Part shown: positions 19,245-57,604 of the stretch, piece by piece | Layout of the letters: every line of letters begins with the position of its first letter | Position numbering within the stretch: the stretch's first letter is position 1 | NCBI GenBank assembly: GCA_032622095.1 | Contig: CP136064.1 | Span: 274,745,614-274,809,613 of the forward strand | Length of the DNA: 64,000 bases | Direction: 5' to 3' | Origin: Siphonodentalium dalli | Lineage: Eukaryota; Mollusca; Scaphopoda; Gadilida; Siphonodentaliidae | Translations under genes and position numbers: made by a program | Notes under the pieces: model-generated | The model's input: the letters and a program-made list of their open reading frames with translations, nothing else | Told to the model about the DNA's origin: nothing | The model's database searches: none

Positions 19245-19293
19245 ACAACACACACACCCACTACATTAATTTACAACACACACACCCACTACA
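19245..19293. repeat. 28-bp minisatellite, left remnant
   Basis: The unit ACAACACACACACCCACTAC plus ATTAATTT occurs at 19245-19272, and again, less its final part, at 19273-19293. The same unit reappears at 24565-24592 and its end at 28630-28642. The two large fold-back elements therefore sit inside what was one small array. Confidence 0.75.
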
Positions 19294-21239
19294 TACACAG
19301 AACGTCACGACGTGTAAATGGGTTTGTCGATACGGCACGAGTGCTGTCGCGGAAGGATTAGTGTAGTGACTTAGCGACACAATTTTGTCATATCGGAACG
19401 GACTGGCCAAAAGTGCCATTTTTTTATATTATGTCAAGTTAGGTGTGCTCTTTCAGAAAGTGAACTAGAAACAGGTTTCTGGTCAATATTAACCCTTGTT
19501 TCCAGTATAAATCCAAGATGGCGGCCAAATTCAATCATTATTTCACCATGACGTTCCAACTGGTATACAATTTAAAGCACATGCATAATAAAGGCGTCAT
19601 TCTATCCGGCATTGTCATATTTTGAAGATATTAGCAATCCAGGCTGACCAAATTTGAAAATTATCACTGTTTGGACCAAAAGCATGAAATTTTGTCATAA
19701 AATCATTCTCGTTTCAATTATTTCGGAATAATAAACAGACAATTTCTCAAAACTGTTTCAGTGCAGATCAAAGGTTAAGATCTTAAAAATTTCAGAAAAG
19801 TATACTGCAAACAAAATATACAACATCTAGGACAAATTCGTAACCATATTTTAGACATTTTGGATTATGTTACCCCTCACCTCAAAAATCATGAAATTTT
19901 GTTTTTGTGATAAACATCCGATAGAACATGGATGAGAATCTGTAAAGGGCTCTATTCGATCACATTTCTTAATACTGTAATTGCAATTACACACACAATG
20001 ACCAAAGTTGAAATTTACAACTTTTTCGACTAAAATATGCAATTTTGTAAGAAAATCCTCATCATTTCAAATATTTTGGTCCAATAAATGGTCATTTACA
20101 CATAGGATATTTGCGATTGTTCAAAATGTTTGGTCTTAAATCTTTTGGACATATATACTGAAAGCAATGAATACATTCTCTGTGGTTCATATGTAACAAC
20201 GTTTCAGAAAATTTGTTTTATGTTACCCCTCACCCCAAAAAGCACGAAAATGTGACTTGGTTGTAAAGATTCAATAAATCTTTGGTTAAATCTTATAAAG
20301 TGAGTTTGTCGATGACAATTAGTCATATATTGTTATGTAACAATCTCATTGCCAGTATACTGTTTAAATTTACAATTGTATGCCTAATAACAGCTATATT
20401 TTATGGTAAAATAACCATCATTTCAAATATTTTCAACCAATATATGGGCAATTTCTCAAACATTTCCCAAGATTGTACACCACATGCGGCCTTGAAAGTT
20501 TCGAAAATGACTGTCGAATACAACACATTTAAAGGTGTATACATGTCATGTCTTGGTGAAATAGAATAAAATTCAAAAAATCTATTATACCATAAATAAT
20601 TTGAAGGTTTTGACTTATATAATCTACAAATGTAGCATACAAGAAGGGGTATATATAGACATGTAGTTCAGATCACAACTTTAATTTGTCTATCAATAAT
20701 ACACATAACATAAAGATGGTCTATCTTTGTTTATACTCTGTTCTTAAATTCACGTTTGTTATGTTGTACCTGTTTTACTATAATGTGCACAGTCTGATCA
20801 TACCAGCAGATATATAGCAACTCATAGATTGTCATGTTATAATCACCGGTGACCATGTTGATACATTGAACAAATATTTTAGGCATTCTTAATATCACAA
20901 TTACAACTGCATAATTATGAGCATGGTAAATCAGCTATTGCACATTTGCACCTGTTACAAGTTTGGGATTTGCAACAACACTTGATGAGTTCTGAACACG
21001 CAGCTGCAGCTTCGGTAATGTAGTCCACAATGGTTTACATCCATGATCTTCAACTGTCCATTCCCAGTCATGCGGGCCATGTATTGGAATTTTTATGTCA
21101 TGACAAGTGTACCACAATCCTGCCTGGTATATGGCTCATTTCATATGATGTATTAGGGCCCCTTTTGAGCGACAAGTTTTGGAGAATTCTCTTCATATGC
21201 CTCATTATCAGCAACTTTTGACAACCTTTATTATAATTA

Positions 21240-22098
21240 ATGGCAATGAAACGTTTGAGTTCTTTGAAAATATATGAGGACGAATCTAGTTGAATAAAAG
21301 GTTGATTCGCCTATAGAAGAAATGTACATGTATCTGTGATAACATGATATTATTTCCATGCTATCCAGAAACTTTTTCTGCCCTTTATATGGAAGAACAA
21401 AGTGGTATCAAAACCAGATATCGAATGAAAATTGGGTAGTGATAACAATTGTCATCGCCCAGAGCGGAAAATGTGCTGTTGTCATGGTACAATGTTTTAG
21501 TTTTGCCTGTTCCTAGAGAAACACATGTATCACCACCACTGTTAGCATCCGTAAACTTTGAAAACAGACCGATGACCATTACCAGGACATATGTGTCAAC
21601 AATCCGAGCACGGATGGTCGTCAGCCCACAAGAAAGCGCATGGATAATGTGCGGCACAATTCTAATATCAGCTTCCTCCTGACAACAGTTTCTCAAGATT
21701 TACTAGGAAGAATTTGCTATTTAGAGAGTTGACGAACATTCTGTCATGTTTAACACTTTATCATCATGTTCTGACGCATTACTTGTCAGGAATACAAAAA
21801 GTTCAAGCTTATTGTCAGAATGACGGAGGAAGTTGTTCCATTTTTTTGGAATCTTAGTTTGGCCACCAACTTTTCGTCAAAGAACTATACCACGATTCTC
21901 ATTAGTGCTGCCTTTTGTGCTGCCTTCTAAACAACTATCCCACATAACACACATGACATTAACACTTCTTAGTTTGTAGAGTATAAAGTTCATTGGTGAC
22001 TGTAATAATTAAAAGTACATGTAGATCTTATCGCAGGCACAATAATTATATGTACAAGAACGCCTCCATAAAATATCTTGCACGTACTTCCAATATTT
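21240..22098 (-). pseudogene. Transposon-linked 'EEADTR/GCDTTS' protein, central and C-terminal part (decayed)
   Basis: The minus strand carries, in order, CKIFYGGVLV (about 22080), FILYKLRSVNVM, KVGGQTKIPKKWNNFLRH and NKLELFVFL (about 21785-21850), EEADIRIVPHIIHAL (about 21660), IGLFSKFTDANSGGDTCVS, then after a frameshift SISGFDTTLFF and GRKSFWIAWK (about 21360-21430). This succession matches, from memory, a large family of uncharacterised invertebrate proteins tied to mobile elements. In intact members the final block reads TGCDTTS followed by GKGKK, reminiscent of the helical signature of FEN/PIN nucleases; that functional link is inference. Several frameshifts and stops make it a pseudogene. 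It lies in the left arm of the fold-back element and is the inverted counterpart of 22412-22530. Confidence 0.65.
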
Positions 22099-22545
22099 TA
22101 TTTCTTGTAATAGTGTGTTCGAACAACAATTGGGCAGTTCAAAAAACCCGAAATCGCTTCTCCGCCATTCCAAACGATCAAGTGCAGGAACAGGAGAACA
22201 TCAAATTGAAAGGAAATGGAGCGTTGATAGGTTTAACAGAGAGCTCATCAACAATAACGAGATGGCTACAACTCCCCGAACCAGACGTGTTTTTCTCTCA
22301 TGAGAGTCGGCTATTTCCCCACGCCTTATCAACGGGAGGTAAATGCAAGGGGACACAATCTGATTTCTGGGATGTATCCGGGAAGCAATTGGGGATATAT
22401 CGGACCCACCTAAAAATATTCAGTGCAAGATATTTGATGGAGGCGTTCTTGTGGATATGATTGTACCTGCGATATAGTATCTACTTTTAATGATTACGCC
22501 CAGTCACTAATGAAGTTTCTACTCTACAGACTAAGAAGTGTTATT
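22099..22545 (+). pseudogene. Same transposon-linked protein, N-terminal part (opposite orientation)
   Basis: The plus strand reads FSAIPNDQVQEQENIKLKG then GNGALIGLTESSS and ITRW (about 22150-22270). Intact relatives show DQAHEQN...KG.GG..GLTE...RW there, upstream of the EEADTR region. After a stretch that no longer matches, the frame continues at 22425 with CKIFDGGVLVDMIVPA and, one frame over, TFNDYAQSLMKFLLYRL (to about 22530). The first part lies in the fold-back spacer and the second in the right arm, where it duplicates 21950-22098 of the left arm. The downstream portion of the gene is deleted from this arm. Together the two pieces show one gene split by an inverted duplication. Confidence 0.6.
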
Positions 22546-24306
22546 GTCATATATATGTGGTGTGGGACATATGAAACGAGCTGCCTACCAGGTAGGATTG
22601 TGGTACACTTATGTCATGCCAAGCTGCAGTTGTGTGCTCAGAACTCATTAATTGTTGTTGCAAATCACAAACTTGTAACAGATGCAAATGTGCAAACGCT
22701 GATTTACCATACACAGAGTTATGTAGATGTAATTGTGTGCTTAAAATATTTGTTCAACGTATAAACACAGGCAGCCGTGATTATAACATGGCAATCTATG
22801 AGTTGCTAGGTATTATCAGTCTGTGAACATTATAGCTACATAACATAACAAATATGAATTTAAGAACACACTATAAACAAAGATAGGCCATTTTTATATG
22901 TATTATTGATTGAAAATTTAAAGTTGTGACCTGAAATGCATATCTGTATATACACCCCTCTTGAATGCTAGATTACATAAGTCAATGATATTTGGTCAAA
23001 TATATCAATTAATGGTATTATAGATTCTTTTATTTTTATTTTATTTCACCAAAACATTACATGTATATACCCTTATATGTGTTGTATATATATTGGATGT
23101 TCATTTTCGAAACTTTTAAGACCGCATATTGTATATTATTGCATATTGCCATTTTATTGGTTGAACATATTTGAAATGATCAAATAAATTGTTATTAGGC
23201 ATACAATTGTTAATTTCAACAGTATACTGACAATGAGATTGTTACATTATAATATATGACGAATTGCGATCGACAAACTCATTTTATAAGATTTAACCAA
23301 AGATTTATTGAATCCCTACAACAAGTCACATTTTCGTGATTTTTGGGGTGAGGGGTAACATAAACCAAATTTTCTGAAACGTTGTTACATATGAACCACA
23401 GACAATGTATTCATTGTTTTCAGTATATATGTCCAAAACATTTAAGACCAAACCTTTTGACCTATCGCAAATATCCTATGTGTAAATGACCATTTATTGG
23501 ACCAAAATATTTTAAATGACGAGGATTTTCTTACAAAATTACATATGTTTTGTCGAAAAAGAATTCAACTTTGGTCATTGTGTATGTAATTGCCATTGCA
23601 GTATTTAGAAATGTGATCAAATAGTGTCCTTTATAGATTATCATCCATGTTCTGTCGGATGCTTATCACAAAAACAATATTTCATGATTTTTGGGGTGAG
23701 GGGTAACATAATCCGAAATTTATAAAATACGGTTAAGAATGTGTCCTAGATATTGTATGTTTTGATTAGAGTATACATGTCCAAAAATGCTAAGACCTTA
23801 ACCTTTGATCTGCACTGAAACATTTTTGAGAAATTGTCTGTTTATTATTCCGAAATAATTGAAACGAGAATGATTATATGACAAAATTGCATGTTTTTGG
23901 TACAAAAAGTGATAAATTTCCAATTTGGTCAGCCTGGGTTGCTACTATCTTCCAAATATGACAATGTCAGGTTGAATGACGCCTTTATTATGCATGCGCC
24001 TCATTTTTTTATACCAGTTGGAACGTCAGTGTGAAATAATGATTGAATTTGACCGCCATCTTGGATTTATACTGGAAACAAGGGTTAATATTGATCAGAA
24101 ACCTGTTTCTAGTTCACTTTCTGAAAGAGCACACATAACTTGACAAAATATAAAAAAAATGGCACTTTTGGCCAGTCCGTTCCAAAAAAAAACGCTAAGT
24201 CACTACACTAGATTGAACGAGAGGCGCTTGCGCCTCGAGTTCTATCCTTCCGCGACAGCACGAGTGCCGTATCGACAAACCCATTTACACATCGTGTCGT
24301 TCTGTG

Positions 24307-24564
24307 TTTATTACACGCTTCGCGTCCTAGAGTCCGTGCATTAAAAATACCGGATTAGAAGGTGTCTTTAGGCTCATATATATACAGGGCGTGTTTGTCA
24401 TGCGTAATGATTCTTTAATTAAATAGTTACAGTTTCCTGGTTGAATCGAACGTCATATACGTCATTTTACGTCAACGAGATGCGTATGGAACGTACGTTC
24501 CATACGGATTTTTAAATATGGAACGGCAATAACACAGAACTTCTAGGAACAAGCGTGTAATAAA
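24307..24564. mobile_element. 258-bp MITE with TTTATTACACGCTT termini, copy 1
   Basis: TTTATTACACGCTT then TCCTAGA (24307-24331) is inverted at the other end as TTCTAGGA then AAGCGTGTAATAAA (to 24564). A perfect 24-bp palindrome, CGTATGGAACGT/ACGTTCCATACG, lies at 24483-24506. It abuts the right end of the 5-kb fold-back element; the same neighbours occur at 55045-55358, so the two may move or have been copied as a unit. Confidence 0.75.
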
Positions 24565-24592
24565 TTAATTTACAACACACACAGCCACTACA
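24565..24592. repeat. 28-bp minisatellite, middle remnant
   Basis: TTAATTTACAACACACACAG then CCACTACA is one unit of the array at 19245-19293. It is trapped between the 258-bp MITE and the next fold-back element. Confidence 0.7.
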
Positions 24593-25087
24593 CTCGAGTA
24601 GCTCATGGTGGTTTTGTATGCGCTTTTATGTCCAGAGCAAAACTCTTCACGAATCCACTAATTGAAGATACACGAACAATATTTGGTTGGTGACACATTT
24701 CCCATTGAGGGCGAAATGGGTCAAATGGCCACGCCCCTTTTTGCGTGAAGTACTACCACCCGCCGTGACTATATCTCCAGAACCGTTGGACATAGGGGGT
24801 CGTGTGACAACTCAACATGTGCGGAATGGCCACATTATTGGGGGTCGGTAATACATGTTCATATCCAAAAGTAAATGTTTTTTAAGATAATTGACAAAAA
24901 CCCCAAAAAAATCAATTTTTAGGGGCCTGAACCCCAATTTTGGAATTCAGCACTTTTATCTCAAAGTTGAGCCCCCAATTTTATTGAACTATATACATCG
25001 GTGCCAAATACAGGTATCATTTCTGATATTTTCTGTACCATTATCGGATGGGATTGACCTTCAATGAGCTTTTGACCCTGAAAATAA

Positions 25088-28132: not shown

Positions 28133-28628
28133 TGTGGATTTTCAGGGGCAAGAGCTCCTTGAAGGTCAATCCCATCCGATAATGGTACAGAAATTATACC
28201 TATATGTGGCACCGATTGACATAGATCAATAAAATTCTAATTGGTGGCTCAGCTTTGAGATAAAAGTGCTGAACCCCAAAATTTTGGGGTTCAGGCCCTT
28301 AAAAATGGATTTTTTTTTGGTTTTTGGCAATTATCTTAAAAACTATTGACTTTTGGATATGCAAATGTGTTACTGACTCCCCATTAAGCGGCCATACCGC
28401 ACATATTGAGTGGTCACACGACCCCCTTTGTCCAACGGTTCTGGAGATATAGTCACGGCGGGTGGTAGTACTTCGCGCAAATAGGGGCGTGGCCATTTGA
28501 CCCATTTCGCCCTTAATGGGAAATGTGTCACCAACCAAATATTGTTCATGTACCTTCAATTAGTGGATTTGTGAAGAGTTTTGCTCTGGACATACAAGTG
28601 CATACAAAACCACCATGAGCTACTAGAG

Positions 28629-29205
28629 TACTACATTAATTTCTTTATGAAAACTTCCTCTTTTAAAAGTCGATTTCTCACTAGAACCTTCTATTATTGG
28701 TTCATTGACACGATCTAATTATTGTCAGGTACACAAAACGTACACAGTGGAAGTGTTATCGCGTCAAATTCGACAGTGAACCTGTAAAGGGTTTAAGTGT
28801 TATGGGTCGATGTTCCTGAACTATAAAGTGGATCTAAGCATTAATTTGCTATCACGCCTGTTTGGAACGACACGAGATGGCGGTCAGATAAGAGCTTTAT
28901 TGTTGATCTATTGTCTGTATAGCGACACGCCCTTAAATACATTCGATGTGGGTTCATACGAAATAACATAAAAGTCTGTAAAACAACCATCACCAGCAAG
29001 TACATGAACACATATATTCACTTTGTTTTACTTTCATTATTAATAACGAACCAAGGCCGCACGCGTTGGGTCGTATATAGACTATATCTAATTTTGTAAA
29101 GTCACCAATTATTACGCCACATGTGGTGTAAGTTGTTTCGGAGATTTTGATATTCTGTGGTCGACTGTGCGAATGCATTGTGGGATATTTTTTGTGTACC
29201 TTACT
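28629..29205. other. No gene seen
   Basis: It begins with the last remnant of the 28-bp minisatellite unit (TACTACATTAATTT, 28629-28642). The rest shows no supported feature. Confidence 0.5.
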
Positions 29206-31391: not shown

Positions 31392-32064
31392 TCGGAGACG
31401 TTCATGTAACCCGTATGGCGATTTACTAAGGGCGCTATGGCAACGTTCATGTAACCGGTATAGCGATTTACTACGGGCGCTATGGCAACGTTCATGTAAC
31501 CCGTATGGCTATTTACTACGGGCGCTATGACAACGTTCATGTAACCCGTATGGCGATTTATTACAGGCGCTATGGCAGCGTTCATGTAACCCGTATGGCC
31601 ATTTACTACGGGCGCTATGGCAACGTTCATGTAACCCGTATGGCGATTTACTACGGGCGCTATGGCAACGTTCATGTAACCCGTATGGCGATTTACTACG
31701 GGCGCTATGGCAACGTTCATGTAACCCGTATGGCGATTTACTAAGGGCGCTATGGCAACGTTCATGTAACCCGTATGGCGATTTACTACGGGCGCTATGG
31801 CAACGTTCATGTAACCCATATGGCGATTTACTACGGGCGCTATGGCAACGTTCATGTAACCCGTATGGCCATTTACTACGGGCGCTATGGCAACGTTCAT
31901 GTAACCCGTATGGCCATTTACTACGGGCGCTATGGCAACGTTCATGGAACCCGTATGGCGATTTACTACGGGCGCTATGGCAACGCCCATGTAACCCGTA
32001 TAGCGCTATGGCAACGTTCATGTAACCCGTATGGCGATATACTATGGGCGCTATGTGTGTGAAT
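31392..32064. repeat. 45-bp minisatellite, about 15 copies
   Basis: The unit starts CGTTCATGTAACCCGTATGG, continues CGATTTACTACGGGCGC and ends TATGGCAA. It repeats with very few changes, and one unit near 31996 is internally shortened. Because 45 is a multiple of three and the unit lacks stops in several frames, long repetitive frames (211, 206, 95 and 79 codons) appear on both strands. They share the DNA repeat and show no other coding evidence. Confidence 0.92.
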
Positions 32065-41578: not shown

Positions 41579-43229
41579 TCTCATATATATTTTGAAGACC
41601 TCTGTGTGTTTGTCTGTCTGTATGTTTGTCTGTCTGTCATTAATACAAATCTACGATTCTCGACCGATCGAGACGAAACTAGGTACGTGTGTGTAGTTTG
41701 ACCAGCCGGTGGACGTTGTCGTATCGTGCGACGCCCGTTTCGCGCATGAGCAGACGAGATCTCGGAAACGGGTGGAGCTATCGACTTGAAATTTGCTATG
41801 TGAATGTATCTTGCCCCGGATGCGAATTTTATCGGGTCGCCGAGCCCGTGCGACGCCAGCTTCGCGCATGCGCAGACGAGATCTCGGAAACGGGTGGAGC
41901 TATCGACTTGAAATTTGGTATGTGAATGTATCTTGCCCCGGATTCGAATTTTATCGGGTCGCCGAGCCCGTGCGACGCCAGCTTCGCGCATGCGCAGACG
42001 AGATCTCGGAAACGGGTGGAGCTATCGACTTGAAATTTGGTATGTGAATGTATCTTGCCCCGGATACGAATTATATCGGTCGCCAAGCCCGTGCGACGCC
42101 AGCTTCGCGCATGCGCAGACGAGATCTCGGAAACGGGTGGAGCTATCGACTTGAAATTTGGTATGTGAATGTATCTTGCCCCGGATTCGAATTTTATCGG
42201 GTCGCCGAGCCCGTGCGACGCCAGCTTCGCGCATGCGCAGACGAGATCTCAGAAACGGGTGGAGCTATCGACTTGAAATTTGGTATGTGAATGTATCTTG
42301 CCCCGGATACGAATTATATCGGGTCGCCGAGCCCGTGCGACGCCAGCTTCGCGCATGCGCAGACGAGATCTCGGAAACGTGTGGAGATATCGACTTGAAA
42401 TTTGGTATGTGAATGTATCTTGCCCCGGATTCGAATTTTATCGGGTCGTCGAGCCCGTGCGACGCCAGCTTCGCGCATGCGCAGACGAGATCTCAGAAAC
42501 GGGTGGAGCTATCGACTTGAAATTTGGTATGTGAATGTATCTTGCCCCGGATTCGAATTTTATCGGGTCGCCGAGCCCGTGCGACGCCAGCTTCGCGCAT
42601 GCGCAGACGAGATCTCGGAAACGGGTGGAGCTATCGACCTGAAATTTGGTATGTGAATGTATCTTGTCCCGGATACGAATTTTATCGGGTCGCCGAGCCC
42701 GTGCGACGCCAGATTCGCGCAAGTGCAGACCAGATCTCGGAAACCTCTGTCTGTCTGTCTGTCTGTATGTTTGTCTGTCATTTATACAAATCTACGATTC
42801 TCGATCGATCGGGACGAAACTTGGTACGTGTGTGTAGTTTGACCAGCCGGTCGTCGTTGTCGTATTGGCGAGCCCGTGCGGCGCCCGCTTCGCGCATGCG
42901 CAGACGATATCTCGGAAACGGGTGGAGCTATCGACTTGAATTTGCTATGTGAATGTATCTGGCCCCGGATACGAATTTTATCGGGTCGCCGAGCTCGTGC
43001 GACGCCAGCTTCGCACATGCGCAGACCAGATCTCGGAAACGGGTGGATCTATCGACTTGAAATTTGGTATGTGAATGTATCTTGCCCCGGATACGAATTT
43101 TATCGGGTCGCCGAGCCCGTGCGACGCCAGCTTCGCGCATGCGCAGACCAGATCTCGGAAACGGGTAGAGCTATCGACTTGAAATTTTGTTTTTGAATAG
43201 CCCGGACAACGTCGGGCTCATCGGCTAGT
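41579..43229. mobile_element. Helitron-like non-autonomous element with 122-bp internal satellite, copy 1
   Basis: The left end is TCTCATATATATTTTGAAGA (41579). The right end is a hairpin AGCCCGGACAACGTCGGGCT (43199-43218), six bases, and CTAGT at 43225-43229. A 5' TC, a 3' CTRRT preceded by a short hairpin, and no target duplication are the hallmarks of Helitrons. Inside are a leader with CTGTCTGTATGTTTGTCTG and CGGGACGAAACTTGGTACG-type sequence (41600-41724), about eight copies of a 122-bp unit (41725-42745), a second leader (42746-42867) and about 2.7 more units. The unit holds CGCGCATGCGCAGACGAGAT, GGGTGGAGCTATCGACTTGA and TATCTTGCCCCGGATTCG. Frames of about 84 codons on both strands are repeat artefacts. 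Bivalve elements with internal microsatellite-like arrays are known from Helitron relatives. Confidence 0.7.
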
Positions 43230-44463: not shown

Positions 44464-44689
44464 TTTTTTATTTATCGCCTCTTGGTAACTGACAACTCTT
44501 TCAGATGAGTGACATCACAAAAATCGATATCTACACATTATTTAGCAGTGAAGTAAATTTATGGCATGTCGTAAAACCATATTACTCGGATTTGTGGTCA
44601 TTTGTCATTTTCGCGGTCATTAAAAGTTTGAACTTTCTGTATAAAAATAAATTGAAATGGCGCAAAATAAGGTTGTTGGTATTTTGCGG

Positions 44690-45930
44690 CGATTCTTGGT
44701 GGTTCGCGGCGATTCTTGGTGGTTCGCGGCGATTCTTGGTGGTTCGCGTTGATTCTTAGTGGTTCGCGGCGATTCTCGGTGGTTGTCGGTGATTCTTGGT
44801 GATTCTCGGTGATTCTTGGTGGTTCGCGTTGATTCTTAGAGGTTCGCGGTGATTCTCGGTGGTTCGCGGCGATTCTTGGTGATTGTCGGTGATTCTTGGT
44901 GGTTCTCGGTGATTCTTGGTGGTTCGCGGCGATTCTCGGTGGTTCGTCGCGATTCTTGGTGGTTCGCGGTGATTCTCGGTGGTTCGCGGCGATCCTTGGT
45001 GGTTCGTCACGATTCTTGGTGGTTCGCGGCGATTCTTGGTGGTTCGCGTTGATTCTTTATGGTTGGCAAAGATTATTGGTGGTTCGCGGCGATTCCTGGT
45101 GGTTCGCGGCGATTCTTGGTGGTCCGCGGCGATTCTTGGTGGTTCGCGTTTATTCTTAGTGGTTCGCGGTGATTCCTGGTGGTTCGCCGCGATTCTTGGT
45201 GGTTCGTCGCGATTCGTGGTGGTTCGCGTTGATTCTTAGTGGTTCGCGGTGATTATTGGTGGTTCGCGGTGATTCTTGTGGTTGTCGGTAATTCTTGGTG
45301 GTTCTCGGTGATTCTTGGTGGTTCGCGGCGATTCTTGGTCGTTCGCGTTGGTTCTTAGTGGTTCGCTGTGGTTCTTGGTAGTTCGCGGTGATTCTTAGTG
45401 GTTCGCGGCGATTCTTAGTGGTTCGCGGCGATTCTTGGTGGTTGTCAGTGATTCGCAGTGATTCTTGGTGGTTCGCGGCAATTCTTGGTTGTTCGCGTTG
45501 ATTCTTAGTGGTTCGCGGTGATTCTTGGTGGTTCGCGGTGATTCTTAGTGGTTCGCGGCGATTCTTGGTGGTTCGCGGCGATTCTTAGGGTTGTCGGTGA
45601 TTTTTGGTGATTCTTGGTCGTTCGCGGCTATTTTTGGTGATTCGCGTTGATTCTTAGTGGTTCGCGGTGATTCTTAGTGGTTCGCGGTGATTCTTGGTTG
45701 TTCGCGGCGATTCTTAGTGGTTCGCTGTGATTCTTGGTGGTTCTCGGTGATTCTTGGTGGTTTGCGGCGATTCTTAGTGGTTCACGGTGATTCTTAGTGG
45801 TTCGCGGTGATTCTTGGCGGTGGTTAATCGCGATTCTTTGTGGTTCGCGTTGATTCTTGGTGGTTCGCGGTGATTCTTGATGGTTCGCGGCGATTCTTGG
45901 TGGTTCTCGGTGATTCTTGGTTATCGGACA
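44690..45930. repeat. 20-bp minisatellite, about 60 copies
   Basis: The unit GATTCTTGGTGGTTCGCGGC repeats with substitutions (GTCGGT, CGCGTT, TTAGTGG) and few length changes over 1.24 kb. Long frames with repeating WWF/GGSRRFLVV or SPRTTENHRE patterns on the two strands (up to 145 codons) come from the repeat. It is one of the longest arrays here. Confidence 0.92.
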
Positions 45931-49629: not shown

Positions 49630-51687
49630 GGATAGGATAGGATAATTTTATTTACAATACACATACATGGAAAGTACAATTACAAATAAATATAATATTA
49701 ATAGACTATACATGTATATTGCTAGGGGTGATATAGTCATGACTGACTGTCTTCCTATCACCCCTGGATGTAGTGACAGATTATATGATGAAGATGGCCG
49801 AATTAACTTGATTGTTTTCAGGTTACGTTTATCGTGTGCAGACTGGGTTTTTAATATATAGGCGTTGTTAGGGCGATGGTACGAAAAGTGGTTCATATGT
49901 ATGTATGGGTACCTACTTGGTCGATATAATGAATGATTACTATGAATATACATGTGTGAGTGGAACCGAGTAGGAATAATGTGAGTGAGGTTTTGGGAAT
50001 TGTTTTTTGTTTTTGTTTGTTTTTTTTCAATTAACTTGCATACTAGAGTGAATTTTGTTTTGTATTGTTTGTTTGTTTTATTTATTTTGTTATCAGAAAA
50101 ATTATGTATCGTTTGTGCAATCAGGGCATCTTCGGTTTTTGCATCGCACGCTCGCTGAGTAGGTATTAATTATACCCGTTTTCAAACGTTTTCGGAAAAC
50201 ATGTCTTGATTGTTTAGAGGTATATTTACTTTCTAGGGAATTCCACATAAAGGGGAATGAATGGTATGGTAGAACTTTAGAAAAAGAGATGGTCCTGAAT
50301 TTTTTTTGTACTATAGGATTAGGTTGTCGTCTATTTGGTTCTGCTCTCTTGTCATACATACCAGAAAAAGACACCGGTGAGCGATCGTAGTACCAATCAT
50401 GCATGCAAATGGATGCATGTAATTTATGTAAATCATCTATTTTTAAAATGTTTTCTTGTTTGAAAAGAGGATCGGTGTGACTTCTATATTTTTTGTTACA
50501 TATAATTCTGATGGCTCGTTTTTGTAATAAATATAGTTTCTTCACTGCCGATACATGTCCCCATATTTGGATGCCATAAACTAAGTGGCTTTGAATTAGG
50601 GCGAAGTATAATGTTTTGAGAGCCTTGCTCGGGAGAAAATGTTTAACTTTATTAATGCAATAAATTGCATGTGCCATTTTTGAGCATACAATAGAAATAT
50701 GTTTATTAAAGGTCAGGTTTTCATCTATATGGATACCTAAAAATTTGGCAGACGATTCGTTCCGCATGTTCCCTATCCGTCGAAGTTCGGCTCCATTGAG
50801 ATATATTTTAATTGTATTCCATTTTTTGTCATTGTTTTGTGGATGCAAGAGCATATAATTGCTTTTGTTAGCATTGATGGCAAGTTTGTTGCAGCAACAC
50901 CAGTCAGATAGATTTCTTAATTCGTTATTGACATAACTTTGGATTAACGCTTCATTTTGTCCACTGGCCATAAGGGTTGTATCGTCGGCATATGATAAGA
51001 GATCCATAGTAGTTGAATTTGACATATCGTTCACGTAGAGGAGAAAAATTATGGGCCCGAGTAAGGACCCCTGAGGAACACCACATGATGTTTTAATGAG
51101 ATTTGACTTGCTTCCATTGAATTCTACGTATTGTCGTCTCTCATTGAGATAGCTTCGAAACCAGTTGTTTGCCATGCCTCTAATTCCATAATGTTCAAAT
51201 TTTGTAAGTAAGATTTCGTGGTTTATTGTGTCAAAAGCTTTGGACAGATCAAGAAAAAGGGCTACGGTGGAATCTTTCGTGGGCTTGTCGTTATTTTTCA
51301 CAACATGATCCAGTAGATGAATGATGGGATGAAAAGTTGAATGGTTTGGGCGAAATCCGTACTGATGTTTAAATAAGATGTCCGATTCATTAAGAAAATC
51401 AACTAAACGTTTTTGCATGAGTTTTTCGAGTAGTTTAGAAAATGCGGGAAGAATGCTTATTGGACGATAATTGTTTATATCCCCCTTGTCACTATTTTTC
51501 GGTATTGGTACAACTTTAGCTATTTTCATTTTGTTGGGAACATGACCTTGTTTGAACGACATGTTGAATATATGCTTTAATGCTGGTGCTACAGAAAATA
51601 TGGTTTCCTTCATCAGTTTTGTAGATATTCCATTGAAGTCACTGCTGGTTTTTCCATTCATTGAGTAGCAAGTAGCAGTAGCAAGTA
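49630..51687 (-). mobile_element. 5'-truncated jockey/CR1-like non-LTR retrotransposon
   Basis: The element runs on the minus strand. Its 3' end (49630-49660 in window coordinates) carries a short tandem of the pentamer TATCC after AATAAAATTA-type sequence, a tail style found in several non-LTR clades in place of poly(A). Its 5' end stops inside the reverse transcriptase region near 51661-51687 in an odd AGTAGCAAGTAGCAGTAGCA stretch. GTGATA occurs on both sides (49624-49629 and 51688-51693), giving a candidate target-site duplication within the minisatellite. A 475-bp 3' untranslated region (49630-50101) follows the ORF. Confidence 0.8.
50102..51661 (-). CDS. Reverse transcriptase of the jockey/CR1-like element (intact frame, 5'-truncated)
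   Basis: About 519 residues belong to the element. It reads NNYRPISILPAFSKLLEK (fingers), FGFRPNHST-type sequence, LFLDLSKAFDTINH (motif A), GVPQGSLLGPIIFLLYVND (motif B), LLSYADDTTLMAS (motif C with both catalytic Asp) and LAINANKSNYMLL, then a thumb region and a Cys-containing tail, RCKNRRCPDC. All catalytic residues are present and the frame is uninterrupted, so this is a recent insertion compared with the copy at 2612-4470. The open frame extends upstream to 51802, but those 47 extra residues come from the flanking minisatellite and are not part of the protein. The endonuclease domain and any ORF1 are missing, so the copy cannot move by itself. Confidence 0.9.
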   Translation of the reverse strand: MNGKTSSDFNGISTKLMKETIFSVAPALKHIFNMSFKQGHVPNKMKIAKVVPIPKNSDKGDINNYRPISILPAFSKLLEKLMQKRLVDFLNESDILFKHQYGFRPNHSTFHPIIHLLDHVVKNNDKPTKDSTVALFLDLSKAFDTINHEILLTKFEHYGIRGMANNWFRSYLNERRQYVEFNGSKSNLIKTSCGVPQGSLLGPIIFLLYVNDMSNSTTMDLLSYADDTTLMASGQNEALIQSYVNNELRNLSDWCCCNKLAINANKSNYMLLHPQNNDKKWNTIKIYLNGAELRRIGNMRNESSAKFLGIHIDENLTFNKHISIVCSKMAHAIYCINKVKHFLPSKALKTLYFALIQSHLVYGIQIWGHVSAVKKLYLLQKRAIRIICNKKYRSHTDPLFKQENILKIDDLHKLHASICMHDWYYDRSPVSFSGMYDKRAEPNRRQPNPIVQKKFRTISFSKVLPYHSFPFMWNSLESKYTSKQSRHVFRKRLKTGIINTYSASVRCKNRRCPDCTNDT

Positions 51688-52490
51688 GTGATATACATAT
51701 ACACCTCACACAAGACCACAGCGTCACTCCATATGTATATATATACCTCATCAATGGCCGTACAGCCCTTCTAGATATACCAATACCCGCACACACAGCC
51801 ATTCGTACAATTCAGACAATACAGCTCAATCGTGAAAATTCAGCCACTCGCTGTATAGATATACACCCTCTCCATGAGCATTCAGATATTCACTGTATGC
51901 TTGTACGCACCACCAATGACAATACAATAGACCCTACATATAAACATATACATCTCGCCCATCACCATGAGGTCCCTCTCTATATACACTAGCCGCCAAT
52001 GGCCATCAAATTGTACTCTAGGTATGCATATACACTTCAACAATGACCGTGCAGTCATTTCATGTACATATACACATTGCCCATAACCATAAAACAACAC
52101 CCTATGTATACATACACCCATTCATTGCCATACATCCAACATATGTATATATATACACTCACCCATTACAATACAGCCACCCAATGTACATATGTACAGT
52201 CCACCCCTGACCACACAGTCACTCCATATATACATACAGGACAGTGTAGCTGCTCTCGTTATGACCATACACCACTTCAATGGCCAGACAGCCACTCACT
52301 GTAAACATGTCCACATCACACATCACCATACATCTACTCCTTATATACCTATACATCTCACTATGGACATCCCATCCATGACCATATAGTCACACATTGT
52401 ATAACTATTCACATCATTCATGAATACAACAACTCCATGTATACCTACTCACCTCGCCTATGACCATCCAGTCAACAGACATACACACTG
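51688..52490. repeat. Degenerate minisatellite of about 42 bp, right part
   Basis: Continuation of the array at 48840-49626 with the same TCACTCCATGTATACATATA and CACCTCACCCATGACCATAC words. Confidence 0.75.
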
Positions 52491-53757: not shown

Positions 53758-54522
53758 TGATGATGTTTTAGATGATGATGATGATGATGGTGATTATGGT
53801 GACGATTTAGATGGTGATGGTGATGATGATAATGCGGGTGATGACGATTTAGATGATAATGATGATGGTGATTATGATGATGGTGATGATGATCCAGATA
53901 ATGATTATGCTGATGGTGATGGTGATGTTGATGATGATGATTATGCTGATGGTGATGATGATGATGATGATGGTGGTGGTGACGATGATGATGATTTAGA
54001 TGATACTGATGATGATGATTATGGTGATGGTGATGATGGTTTAGATGATCATTATGCTGATGGTGATGATGATGATGATGATGGTGATAACGATGATGAT
54101 TTAGATGCTGATGATGATGATGATGATGAATATGATGATTTAGATGATGATGATGATGGTGATGATGGTGCTGATGATGGTGATGATGATGATTTAGATG
54201 CTGATGATGATGATGAAGATGATGATGATGATGATGATGGTGATGATGGTGATTATGGTGATGATGGTGATGATGATGACGATGATGACGAAGATGATGA
54301 TTTAGATGATAATGATGATGGCGATGATGGTGATGGTAATGATGATGGTGATGATGATGGTGATGATGATGATGATGATGATTTAGATGATGATGATGAT
54401 AACGATAATGATGATTTGGATGATTATGATGGTGATTGTGGTGATGATGATGCTGATGATTTATATGATAATGATGATGGTGATGAGGGTGATGATGATG
54501 GTGATGATGATGATGGAGATGG

Positions 54523-54571
<49 letters not shown>

Positions 54572-54800
54572 GATAATGATGATTTAGATGGTGATTGTGA
54601 TGGTGATGATGATTTAGATGATAATGATGATGGTGATACTGACGATTGTGATGATTTAGATGATGATGATGATGGTAATGATGACAATGATGATGTTTTA
54701 GATGATGATGGTGATGATGATGACGATGGTGGTGATGATGATAATGACTACGACGACGATGATGATGTTGTTGGTGATGGTAATGGTGGTGATGAAATTG
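53758..54800. repeat. 1-kb GAT trinucleotide repeat (poly-Asp frame)
   Basis: About 345 triplets of GAT with scattered GGT, TTA, AAT, TAT and GCT variants stay in one phase without a single length change that breaks the frame. The plus strand therefore shows a 431-codon frame (53570-54865) of Asp with Gly, Leu, Asn and Tyr. Its N-terminal 60 residues are antisense to the Penelope fragment and its end is unrelated, so a real protein is unlikely. TTA triplets recur as D-L-D at fairly regular spacing, hinting at a longer repeat unit. Confidence 0.85.
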
Positions 54801-55044
54801 ATAAAATAATGGATTGTTTATGGAACCAGTTTTGCTTTTTATTTAGATTCCAGAGTCTAAAATAATATGCGTTGACCTGAACGTGTCGCCCGAAAACAAT
54901 CCCTTATATATCAATTTATTTTATCAAAGTTTGGGGGACAGAAATAATTAACATATTAAATGTTCGATATCAAAATGGTATTGTTTTGTATCACTAAGTA
55001 TAGTTTATATGTTTTATGTAGTTTTTAACATCCGTGGCATATAT

Positions 55045-55105
55045 ACACAGAACGACACGATGTGCCGTATCGACAAACCCATTTACACATCGTGTCGTTC
55101 TGTGT
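55045..55105. mobile_element. 61-bp deletion derivative of the 5-kb fold-back element
   Basis: ACACAGAACGACACGATGTG (55045 on) faces CACATCGTGTCGTTCTGTGT (to 55105), with CCGTATCGACAAACCCATTT between. These are the outermost ends of the element at 19295-24307 with everything else removed. Confidence 0.75.
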
Positions 55106-55358
55106 TTATTACACGCTTCGCGTCCTAGAATCCATGCATTAAAAATACAGGATTAGAAGGTTTATTTAGGCTCGTACAGGGCGGTGTTTGTCATGTGTGA
55201 TGATTCGTTTATTTAAATAGTTCCAGTTTCATGGTTGAGGCGAACGTCAATTACGTCATTTTACGTCAACGAGATGCGTATGGAACGTACGTTCCATACG
55301 GATTTGTAAATATGGAACAGCAATAACACTGTACTTCTAGGAACAAGCGTGTAATAAA
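55105..55358. mobile_element. 254-bp MITE with TTTATTACACGCTT termini, copy 2
   Basis: It has the same inverted ends and the same 24-bp palindrome (55277-55300) as the copy at 24307-24564, with roughly 90 percent similarity by eye. It again directly adjoins the right end of the fold-back family. Confidence 0.75.
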
Positions 55359-57604
55359 TGCCAATAGTGATGTTAAATTATAAGATGTATGTGGTTGTAA
55401 ATTGAGGTTTGGAACCCTGAATACACCTTTAAACATTTCTATACTAAATACTCATTAATGAGTTGTTATCCCTTAGGAAATGTTCAGATACTAATATAAC
55501 GTACTATTCACCGGCTGGGTTTATAATATAGTCCAGGTAGTTTTACGAGGCGACGCTCAATGCGAAGCTATCGGTGGACATATCGATGGGAAGACATCGC
55601 CGCGCGGTATAGGATTATCCAATCAAGGTGATTGGCGTCAATCATAGATTGACCTCTGGTCACATAAACATGCTGCGTGTAACAGTACACGTTTGTACAC
55701 AATTTAACAATGAGCAACCGAGAGAAAGGACGTGGGGCAAAATATACCACCGACGACATGGGGGGGGGGGGTGTCTACAAATAAAATCCGTATATAGGGC
55801 CGGGGTGGGTGGGTGGTCCAGAGGCCGAAACAATCGTGCTTGTAATTTTTTTCCAAAATGGGTTTTTTTTCAAACAATTTACAAGTACTGACCATGTAAT
55901 GTTGTTTGTAAGCATGTTAGTATCATGTTTGTTGGCATATGGCTATATAGACAGCAATAGTGACTATTTAGCCTCAGATTTAACAACATTCTGGATTTCA
56001 CAGGATCCCGTCCCACTTCTCAGTGGAAAACCGTAATTTAGTAAAAAAAAATAATGTATTACCCAGTTGTATTACCCGAATAAAAGTAATAATAAAAAAA
56101 TGTATCACAAATACTACATGGTGAATACTCAATGATGACTAGTTATCATTGACCCGATTGTTGCATAACATGAAATTGAAAAGGGTATCTCATAAATTTA
56201 TAATGTCTGAAATACTCACGGTGTCTTGTTCTGGCATGCAATCAAATTCATTACTTCTGGTTATTTCTCATCTGGAATGATTGCAAGTAATGTTCATTTG
56301 CAGCACTTATCCAAATAAAACTGAATTGGTTATGATGAATGACCGTTACTGTTTATTGTTCAGACAATCCCAACTGAAGGTGACGCTATTCTCCTTGAAT
56401 TTACGAACTTCGTCTTGAAGCGTAAATACTGCTCAACAAGACTAAACTACAATACTAATTGTATACTGTTATCGCTTACAAATAGATGAACTGAAATAAT
56501 GTGATGCGTTCAGATGCTTTGAGAAATGACATTCTTCAATGTCTTCAAAGTTCAAACTAAAATCAAGAATACAATCTGACTGAGACTATACTGCAGACTC
56601 TAGTGCACAAATATACATACAAATGGTTGAGTTATAATAATGCAAAATGTGTTTACGGGTGGAACCAAGTTGGTAGCTCTGGTATGCATCGACAGGCAAA
56701 ACATGTGATATGCAGTAATATCTGCATAGTGCATACATCCTTCCCGTATCATTCAGGTCTATCACCATACCAAACCACTTCAAAATTCGACAACTCTTAT
56801 ATGGCAAAAACTTTGTACGGATTGAATTTCATAAACAGGGCCCATGGATACCTCTGGTAGGCATTGGTACTCACAATCCGTGATATTATGCATATTCGTT
56901 CCCCATTTCTGGTCCATCACATGTCATAGAGCATCAAAATATGACAACCGACTTTTGAGTTATGATGCAAAATGTTTGTACGGACGGACGCACGGACGAC
57001 TCGAGACGTCAACTTATTCCCGCCGACTAATATCGGGGGTATAATAACCATATATCTATGTGTATACCTAACCAAAACAATTCCCCTCCTCACCCACCCC
57101 GGTGGATAAGACTAAAGAGTTCTTTGATCATGCACAAATAATTGTAGAACCCCTGACCTGTTTACCACTATTTACACTGACTAAACACGCTCGATAGATT
57201 AAGGCTATAATGCGGTCTAGGGCAATTTGTGACATACAGTGTACCTATATACACAATACTTTATTATTGTTGTTAGATACTGGAAACGCCAGGAAACACC
57301 TGGAAATACAGTTTATTTTTCGTTTTTCTGACCTGTGCTTTATCGATTAAGGATGTTATTGCTTGAGTCTTAATTTTACACACATCGCACCAAAAAAGGA
57401 TAGTGGAATGGATTGAAAGACAGTTAACACAGTTATTGAGTTATTGAAGAACGGCTAAAAAACTCTGAAATTTTGATAAAAACATGAGATAGGGGGTGGG
57501 TCCCTAACATTTGGAGGAACAAATTTGCACAAATGGGTGGTGGGTCCCTCGGGGTCGGAAAAAACTTTTTTTTTTGGGCCCTATATGTGCAATTGTTTTC
57601 CATA
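55359..57604. other. No gene supported in 2.2 kb
   Basis: AT-rich DNA with a poly-G run (55760-55771) and several chance frames up to 87 codons, none recognisable. GACGGACGCACGGACGA near 56983-57000 is the end of another mollusc-type ACGG repeat. Confidence 0.45.

Follow-up and report, generated by a model that had tools for sequence, protein, structure and literature searches.

How does an ordinary gene-bearing transposon become a palindrome? The question is raised by a locus of the scaphopod mollusc Siphonodentalium dalli (assembly GCA_032622095.1, contig CP136064.1, positions 274,745,614 to 274,809,613; this stretch of 64,000 nucleotides is the window in which positions are counted below), where pieces of one gene, marked by EEADTR and GCDTTS motifs, read on opposite strands of a large inverted repeat. 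The locus holds a complete fold-back element of 4852 bp. We put at roughly four in five the probability that it belongs to a non-autonomous DNA transposon family in which an EEADTR/GCDTTS gene-bearing transposon turned into a palindrome, its 3' half and 3' terminal region being duplicated in inverted orientation round a short loop. Both ends of the fold-back would then be copies of the same (3') end, because the 3' terminal region was duplicated with the gene half. The founding step of fold-back elements is usually lost; here gene parts are still readable in the arms.

Limits and copies of the fold-back element

Self-alignment of the locus gave an inverted repeat between 19295-21012 and 22621-24307, 82.5% identical over 1771 columns, and two inner inverted blocks, 21096-21147 with 22568-22621 (83%) and 21938-22083 with 22423-22567 (79%). 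The palindrome proposed in the initial annotation is thus real, and its junction block, placed there at 21950-22098 versus 22412-22530, is the second of these inner blocks. The extent given there, 19295-24307 as a single fold-back, did not hold. The genome (2.2 Gb, 9 contigs) was searched with the first 406 bases of this span, and the best 40 of 1960 candidates were scored: the other 39 start at query base 63-65, equivalent to window positions 19357-19359. Since copies elsewhere start and end at the same bases, the element was delimited as 19359..24210, with ends TAGTGTAGTGACTTAGCG...CGCTAAGTCACTACACTA, between two copies of the target site duplication GAT (19356..19358 on the left and 24211..24213 on the right). 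The outer 64-bp arms, which the genomic fold-back copies do not have, were rejected as part of the fold-back; they belong to the hairpin of a Helentron-type element described below. The span consists of two nested elements, and the palindrome is genuine.

As set by the inverted-repeat alignment, the left arm (19359..22083, minus strand) and the right arm (22423..24210, plus strand) carry gene remnants reading outward and enclose a single-copy loop of 339 bp (22084..22422). The arms are unequal, ~2.7 kb on the left and ~1.8 kb on the right, the right arm being without ~790 bp of the left; the left-arm-only segment (21148..21937, minus) has nearly no partner in the right arm. Apart from this 790-bp difference, the arms diverge by 5-14% per 200-bp bin (counting bins of 89 or more aligned columns). 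A subterminal tandem repeat lies at 19645..20458, with a spacing of ~353-356 bp and copies 66-75% alike, and has a right-arm counterpart at ~23332-23931 with a spacing of 348. With its long inverted arms, short loop and mobility as one unit, the element is of the fold-back or long terminal inverted repeat (TIR) kind. Separately, we observed CCAAGATGGCGGCC (or CCAAGATGGCCGCC), which we take to resemble a YY1 site, close to the ends of three elements that have little else in common (19512-19528 in the window, L063:271-287, and L054 near its 3' end).

Of 20 fetched loci, nine (L009-L016, L018) align with the whole 4.8-kb structure in one piece, at 98-99%; the others have copies altered by insertions or deletions or cut off where the fetched sequence stops, and L019 and L024 show rearrangements. 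Target duplications were counted in 25 stretches, the window and 24 loci, of which eight were left out for a missing end. In the other 17 both ends of the element are present, and 15 of these copies are flanked by an exact 3-bp duplication, the exceptions being L013, with none, and L026, with 2 bp as placed and 3 if the end is moved by one base. These sites bear on the concern that the palindrome is an assembly artefact in which self-folded reads were wrongly joined. Long reads can give fold-back artefacts of this kind. However, the same 4.8-kb palindrome stands on several chromosomes between 3-bp duplications of differing sequence, and the arms within a copy are only ~83-85% alike, whereas full copies are 99% alike. 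The independent insertions refute the artefact, to which we attach practically no weight, and on this point the outcome favours the initial annotation.

Two of the 15 copies with an exact duplication, L012 and L015 (C2 near 5.65 and 3.56 Mb), show the same insertion with the same flanking bases 2 Mb apart, probably one insertion duplicated with its surroundings by segmental duplication. Three same-strand fold-back matches at C6:145.798, 145.814 and 145.831 Mb, spaced 16.4 kb, are possibly a tandem segmental array.

Gene remnants in the arms and loop

A protein probe found relatives with long frames genome-wide, one of which, L054, is intact and encodes 1422 amino acids (aa). When this protein was compared with the window by tblastn at lenient settings, aa 892-937 matched 22131-22268 (plus, E 2e-5) within the loop, and aa 1172-1355 and 1359-1401 matched 21987-21454 and 21442-21314 in the left arm (both minus, collinear, joint E 2e-19). 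A weak match of aa 1028-1155 to 22091-22468 (plus, E 1.2 alone) links the loop to the KIFDGG part of the right arm. On its plus strand the loop carries the N-ward gene piece FSAIPxDQ...EQEN...LTES, continuing toward the right arm. In the left arm, 21454..21987 (minus) is the remnant of the central part through EEADIR, and 21314..21442 (minus) that of the GCDTTS-GKGKK motif, reading GFDTT...KGRK; these EEADTR and GCDTTS parts lie in the left-arm-only segment, where the frames of a second relative matched the EEAD-GCD part at E 7e-31.

Two coding parts are present in both arms. The KIFDGG part forms the inner arm blocks at 21938..22083 (minus) and 22423..22567 (plus), and the Cys-rich C-terminal tail, searched for with open frames of the second relative, lies at 20888..21019 in the left arm (minus, E 6e-12) and at 22620..22745 in the right arm (plus, E 3e-10). 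Both arms carry the 3' half of the EEADTR/GCDTTS gene, outward and up to the Cys-rich tail, and an N-ward piece stands in the loop. The initial annotation had read the left arm as the central and C-terminal parts on the minus strand, and the spacer and right arm as the N-terminal part and the start of the central part on the plus strand, and had taken the arms for an inverted duplication of part of a transposon gene; the intact relative supports the first claim and the doubled KIFDGG block and tail the second.

Gene pieces on opposite strands could also result from inversion, the internal segment of a long-TIR element having flipped without any duplication. The inner inverted blocks of 145 bp flank the loop and could recombine, and a flip changes the strand of the loop. 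However, the DNA match places a KIFDGG block in each arm in opposite orientation, each arm has its own Cys-rich tail, and a right-arm YQAG-L-YTC piece matches weakly, at E 0.87 only. Because coding parts occur twice, once per arm, inversion alone is insufficient, and we regard it as very unlikely. A later flip of the loop, following the duplication, may nevertheless have taken place.

Domain searches gave little. Pfam scans found no family in the gene remnants at E 1 or less, a single chance-level match (DUF4716, E 0.16) in pieces of five relatives at E 10 or less, and no family, transposase domain included, in the intact 1422-aa relative. PDB searches returned nothing for the EEAD piece, one match for the intact protein (Midline-1, E 1.5) and no chain for a five-sequence profile. 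No relatives were found in the viral and GTDB collections searched, and a text search of the literature for GCDTTS/EEADTR found no paper. Of the eight gene pieces fetched, three (L056, L057, L061; no masked bases) had no frame under the motif filter; alignment A1 contains five of the six usable rows, L059 being omitted as near-identical to L054. For the loop frame, 13 of 20 rows gave a ratio of nonsynonymous to synonymous change (pN/pS), with values from 0.35 to 1.1; in the other seven it is undefined for lack of synonymous changes.

Age and origin of the palindrome

Ten full copies, the window included, have a mean pairwise identity of 99.1%, and the two arms of their consensus show 84.6% identity over 1674 columns. 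A tree was built from 38 arms (~1 kb; only arms with matches over 850 bp were taken), and in it one 100/100 branch splits 20 left from 18 right arms. Since left and right arms separate completely, the palindrome is older than the sampled copies: one ancestral palindrome predates them, and its arms diverged before the recent burst. The tree fits a single ancestral duplication, as initially supposed. The idea of a rare, single record had to be abandoned, the window element belonging to a family that has spread through the genome, at least 99 of its copies carrying inverted gene pieces. The N-terminal and EEAD pieces each have at least 150 scored genome matches, and among the matches listed all 99 neighbouring pairs (within 3.5 kb) lie on opposite strands in the same order; 51 of the 150 listed N-terminal matches, with no listed EEAD match within 3.5 kb, were excluded from this count.

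The conversion itself may be visible in a second subfamily. The protein probe had also matched gene parts that diverge from each other at a distance of a few kb. One such pair, C3:119798800-119802750 (C3:119.80 Mb), forms a palindrome whose arms are 94% alike over 1533 columns, with 35 mismatches and 57 gap positions, and whose 295-bp loop holds the RYSAIPIDQAHEQEN piece. Its blastn matches to the window element are limited to one of 57 bp at 74% and a run of 17 identical bases. Used as query, its C-terminal arm gave 29 genome matches, 95-99% alike, whose neighbour pairs were divergent in four cases, direct in three and convergent in none. The loop gave 21 matches: two (C3:119.80 and C1:217.25 Mb) span the junction, three are distant (68%), and 16, at 91-96%, end near the junction, 14 of them exactly at GATCAT. 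Comparison of the loop and arm matches yielded 15 loci with ordinary gene order, both pieces on one strand, and two loci with the N-terminal piece between divergent arms; two further divergent arm pairs are without it. In this comparison 4 of the 21 loop matches and 9 of the 29 arm matches had no partner, four of the nine making up those two divergent pairs.

At the junction of the C3:119.80 palindrome, GATCAT (D-H codons) is joined to the complement of ATGATC, which amounts to a 6-bp inverted microhomology; the chance of at least 6 bp is ~0.0013, about one in 750 junctions, if junctions form without regard to homology. The C3:119.80 and C1:217.25 loci have loops 96% alike and the same junction; they could be a pair produced by an old transposition, or the same site could have been used twice. 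Judged by match order and junction sequence, the second subfamily appears to display the step from ordinary gene-bearing copies to palindromes, and its ordinary loci and microhomology junction support fold-back priming. A break inside the element would be followed by resection, the resected 3' end could pair with its own strand through a short inverted repeat, and synthesis running outward past the 3' end would yield an element with a 3' end on either side, still recognised by the transposase. Fold-back copies may then have been moved in trans by the transposase of a related element. Comparable events are reported elsewhere: fold-back priming at 5-9 bp inverted repeats in yeast deficient in Mre11 or Sae2 (PMC7999016), and templated inverted duplication through fold-back at microhomology (PMC11724301).

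The same data bear on a chimeric origin, in which two different copies would have recombined ectopically or been joined head to head. The arm differences of the window element, in the bins and in the 790-bp segment, could mean two parents that had already diverged, and Galileo chimeras with two unlike TIRs are on record, such an origin having been proposed for some Galileo copies (PMC3573991). In the second subfamily, however, the palindrome arms (94%) are about as alike as separate copies are in loop and arm, and a 6-bp inverted microhomology inside one gene needs no second parent, though it is compatible with one. For the window family a chimera and a single-parent history are hard to separate; overall we hold the chimera to be unlikely.

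Several points weigh against our preferred origin, inverted duplication of the 3' half of one gene-bearing element. No ordinary, non-palindromic copy of the window subfamily occurred among the listed matches and the 24 fetched loci, so that the founding event of this subfamily is not seen; part of the window arms may already have been long TIR, and the microhomology figure is that of the second subfamily. In the second subfamily the ordinary loci were called from match order alone, one junction was sequenced, the C1:217.25 locus is known only from a junction-spanning match, and it may share one founding event with C3:119.80. Pfam and PDB searches returned no match in favour of a nuclease or transposase reading of the gene. 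Finally, the 5-9 bp repeats in the yeast repair mutants had spacers of 3-12 bp (PMC7999016), whereas our loops measure 295 and 339 bp; that work also mentions large loops that follow long resection.

More tentatively, palindrome formation might be a recurrent habit of this transposon superfamily, several EEADTR/GCDTTS lineages having separately become fold-backs with the gene's 3' half in both arms; we think this possible and rather doubtful. Two such lineages are shown, the window family and the type found at C3:119.80 and C1:217.25 Mb, and C3:206.89, C4:7.44 and C8:103.76 Mb are candidates from divergent matches only. Perhaps the element's own cutting creates ends able to fold back where short inverted repeats occur, and the resulting 3'-3' elements would stay mobile. 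If so, conversion of gene to fold-back would be a normal route by which non-autonomous families originate in this superfamily. Loci in ordinary order beside palindromes, with a junction known to the base, make the origin of fold-backs testable by junction counts within one genome.

Relation to described elements and surroundings

CACTA (EnSpm) elements have 5' termini that start with CACTA or CACTG; this superfamily was rejected, since all 17 copies in which both ends are present start with TAGTGTA. The protein of AcademX elements includes an XPG-type nuclease, and the EEAD...DTD...GCD series may resemble FEN/XPG motifs. The element possibly belongs to AcademX, which is the least certain of our assignments: the 3-bp target duplications fit the 3-4 bp given for AcademX together with a nuclease (PMC10045372), while the defining nuclease and transposase did not emerge here in Pfam or PDB searches. 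Academ elements are reported to be common in bivalves (PMC10294476). A literature search for Academ with foldback gave no such element among the matches examined, and we do not claim that none is in print.

The fold-back or long-TIR kind itself is already known, because Galileo copies carry an inverted duplicate of an internal region; the evidence of origin is unusually good here. By comparison of structure, Galileo and Tetris are the closest described cases. Galileo, of the P superfamily in Drosophila (PMC3573991), resembles our element in its long TIRs with internal tandem repeats, in having non-autonomous copies whose TIRs were extended when an internal region was duplicated in inverted orientation, and in having several subfamilies per genome. 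It differs in its 7-bp target duplications and P-type transposase; our element has 3-bp duplications, a gene of the EEADTR/GCDTTS family, and 3' coding parts on both sides of the loop. Tetris, a fold-back of Drosophila virilis (PMC4079207), has tandem repeats of ~220 bp in its TIR, arms of up to 1.7 kb, no intact gene and an unknown partner. It differs in its target duplications of 8-10 bp and in having, according to the same text, no apparent coding capacity, whereas our element has a readable gene remnant.

The fold-back inserted near the hairpin tip of a Helentron-type (HINE-like) element. The outer arm at 19295..19358 (minus), absent from the 39 other scored fold-back matches, is half of this hairpin and an inverted copy of 24244-24307; the remainder of the hairpin occupies 24211..24307 (minus), and the body 24308..24563 (minus), with inverted repeats TTATTACACGCTT (24308-24320) and AAGCGTGTAATAA (24551-24563). 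The outer element thus has the subterminal inverted repeats and the 3' hairpin of HINE elements. When the flanks are rejoined with GAT once, they fold into a near-perfect hairpin of 158 nt (-134.5 kcal/mol with RNA energies). Because the fold-back sits inside this hairpin, the apparent palindrome is 64 bp longer on each side. A 32-bp minisatellite unit flanks the outer element at 19262-19293 and 24561-24592, which fits a single insertion of the HINE-like element into the array.

A second HINE-like copy in the window (24259-24565 versus 55056-55359, 91%) also has a hairpin (z -8.3 with DNA energies). Hairpin length is strongly variable between the two copies (19295-19358 with 24211-24563, and 55041-55359), one having a hairpin of 158 nt and the other a 20-bp stem. 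Two accounts of HINE elements (PMC4067079; PMC7492417) describe the same short subterminal inverted repeats with a hairpin beyond the 3' repeat; the differences are the 158-nt hairpin here, against palindromes of 5-10 bp in mite elements, and a TT insertion that is not clear-cut for our outer element. At the insertion target in the window the hairpin score was 108 against a maximum of 23 over 30 shuffles, and the targets of L011, L012/L015 and L013 scored modestly above their own shuffles. A general preference of the fold-back for hairpin targets was rejected, a strong hairpin being present at the window copy alone.

Elsewhere in the window, Pfam searches of four open reading frames other than the gene remnants gave a reverse transcriptase in two, one of them below the cut-off, and matches in a minisatellite frame; an open frame of 566 aa at 50102-51802 (minus) contains a reverse transcriptase domain (RVT_1, E 4e-40). 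Another small repeat, outside the fold-back, is a 109-bp inverted match of 94.5% between 24592-24700 and 28521-28629. Minisatellite or satellite-like arrays, with 45-, 122- and 20-bp units and a GAT-rich array, lie at 31398-32005, 41725-42744, 44686-45921 and 53758-54795.

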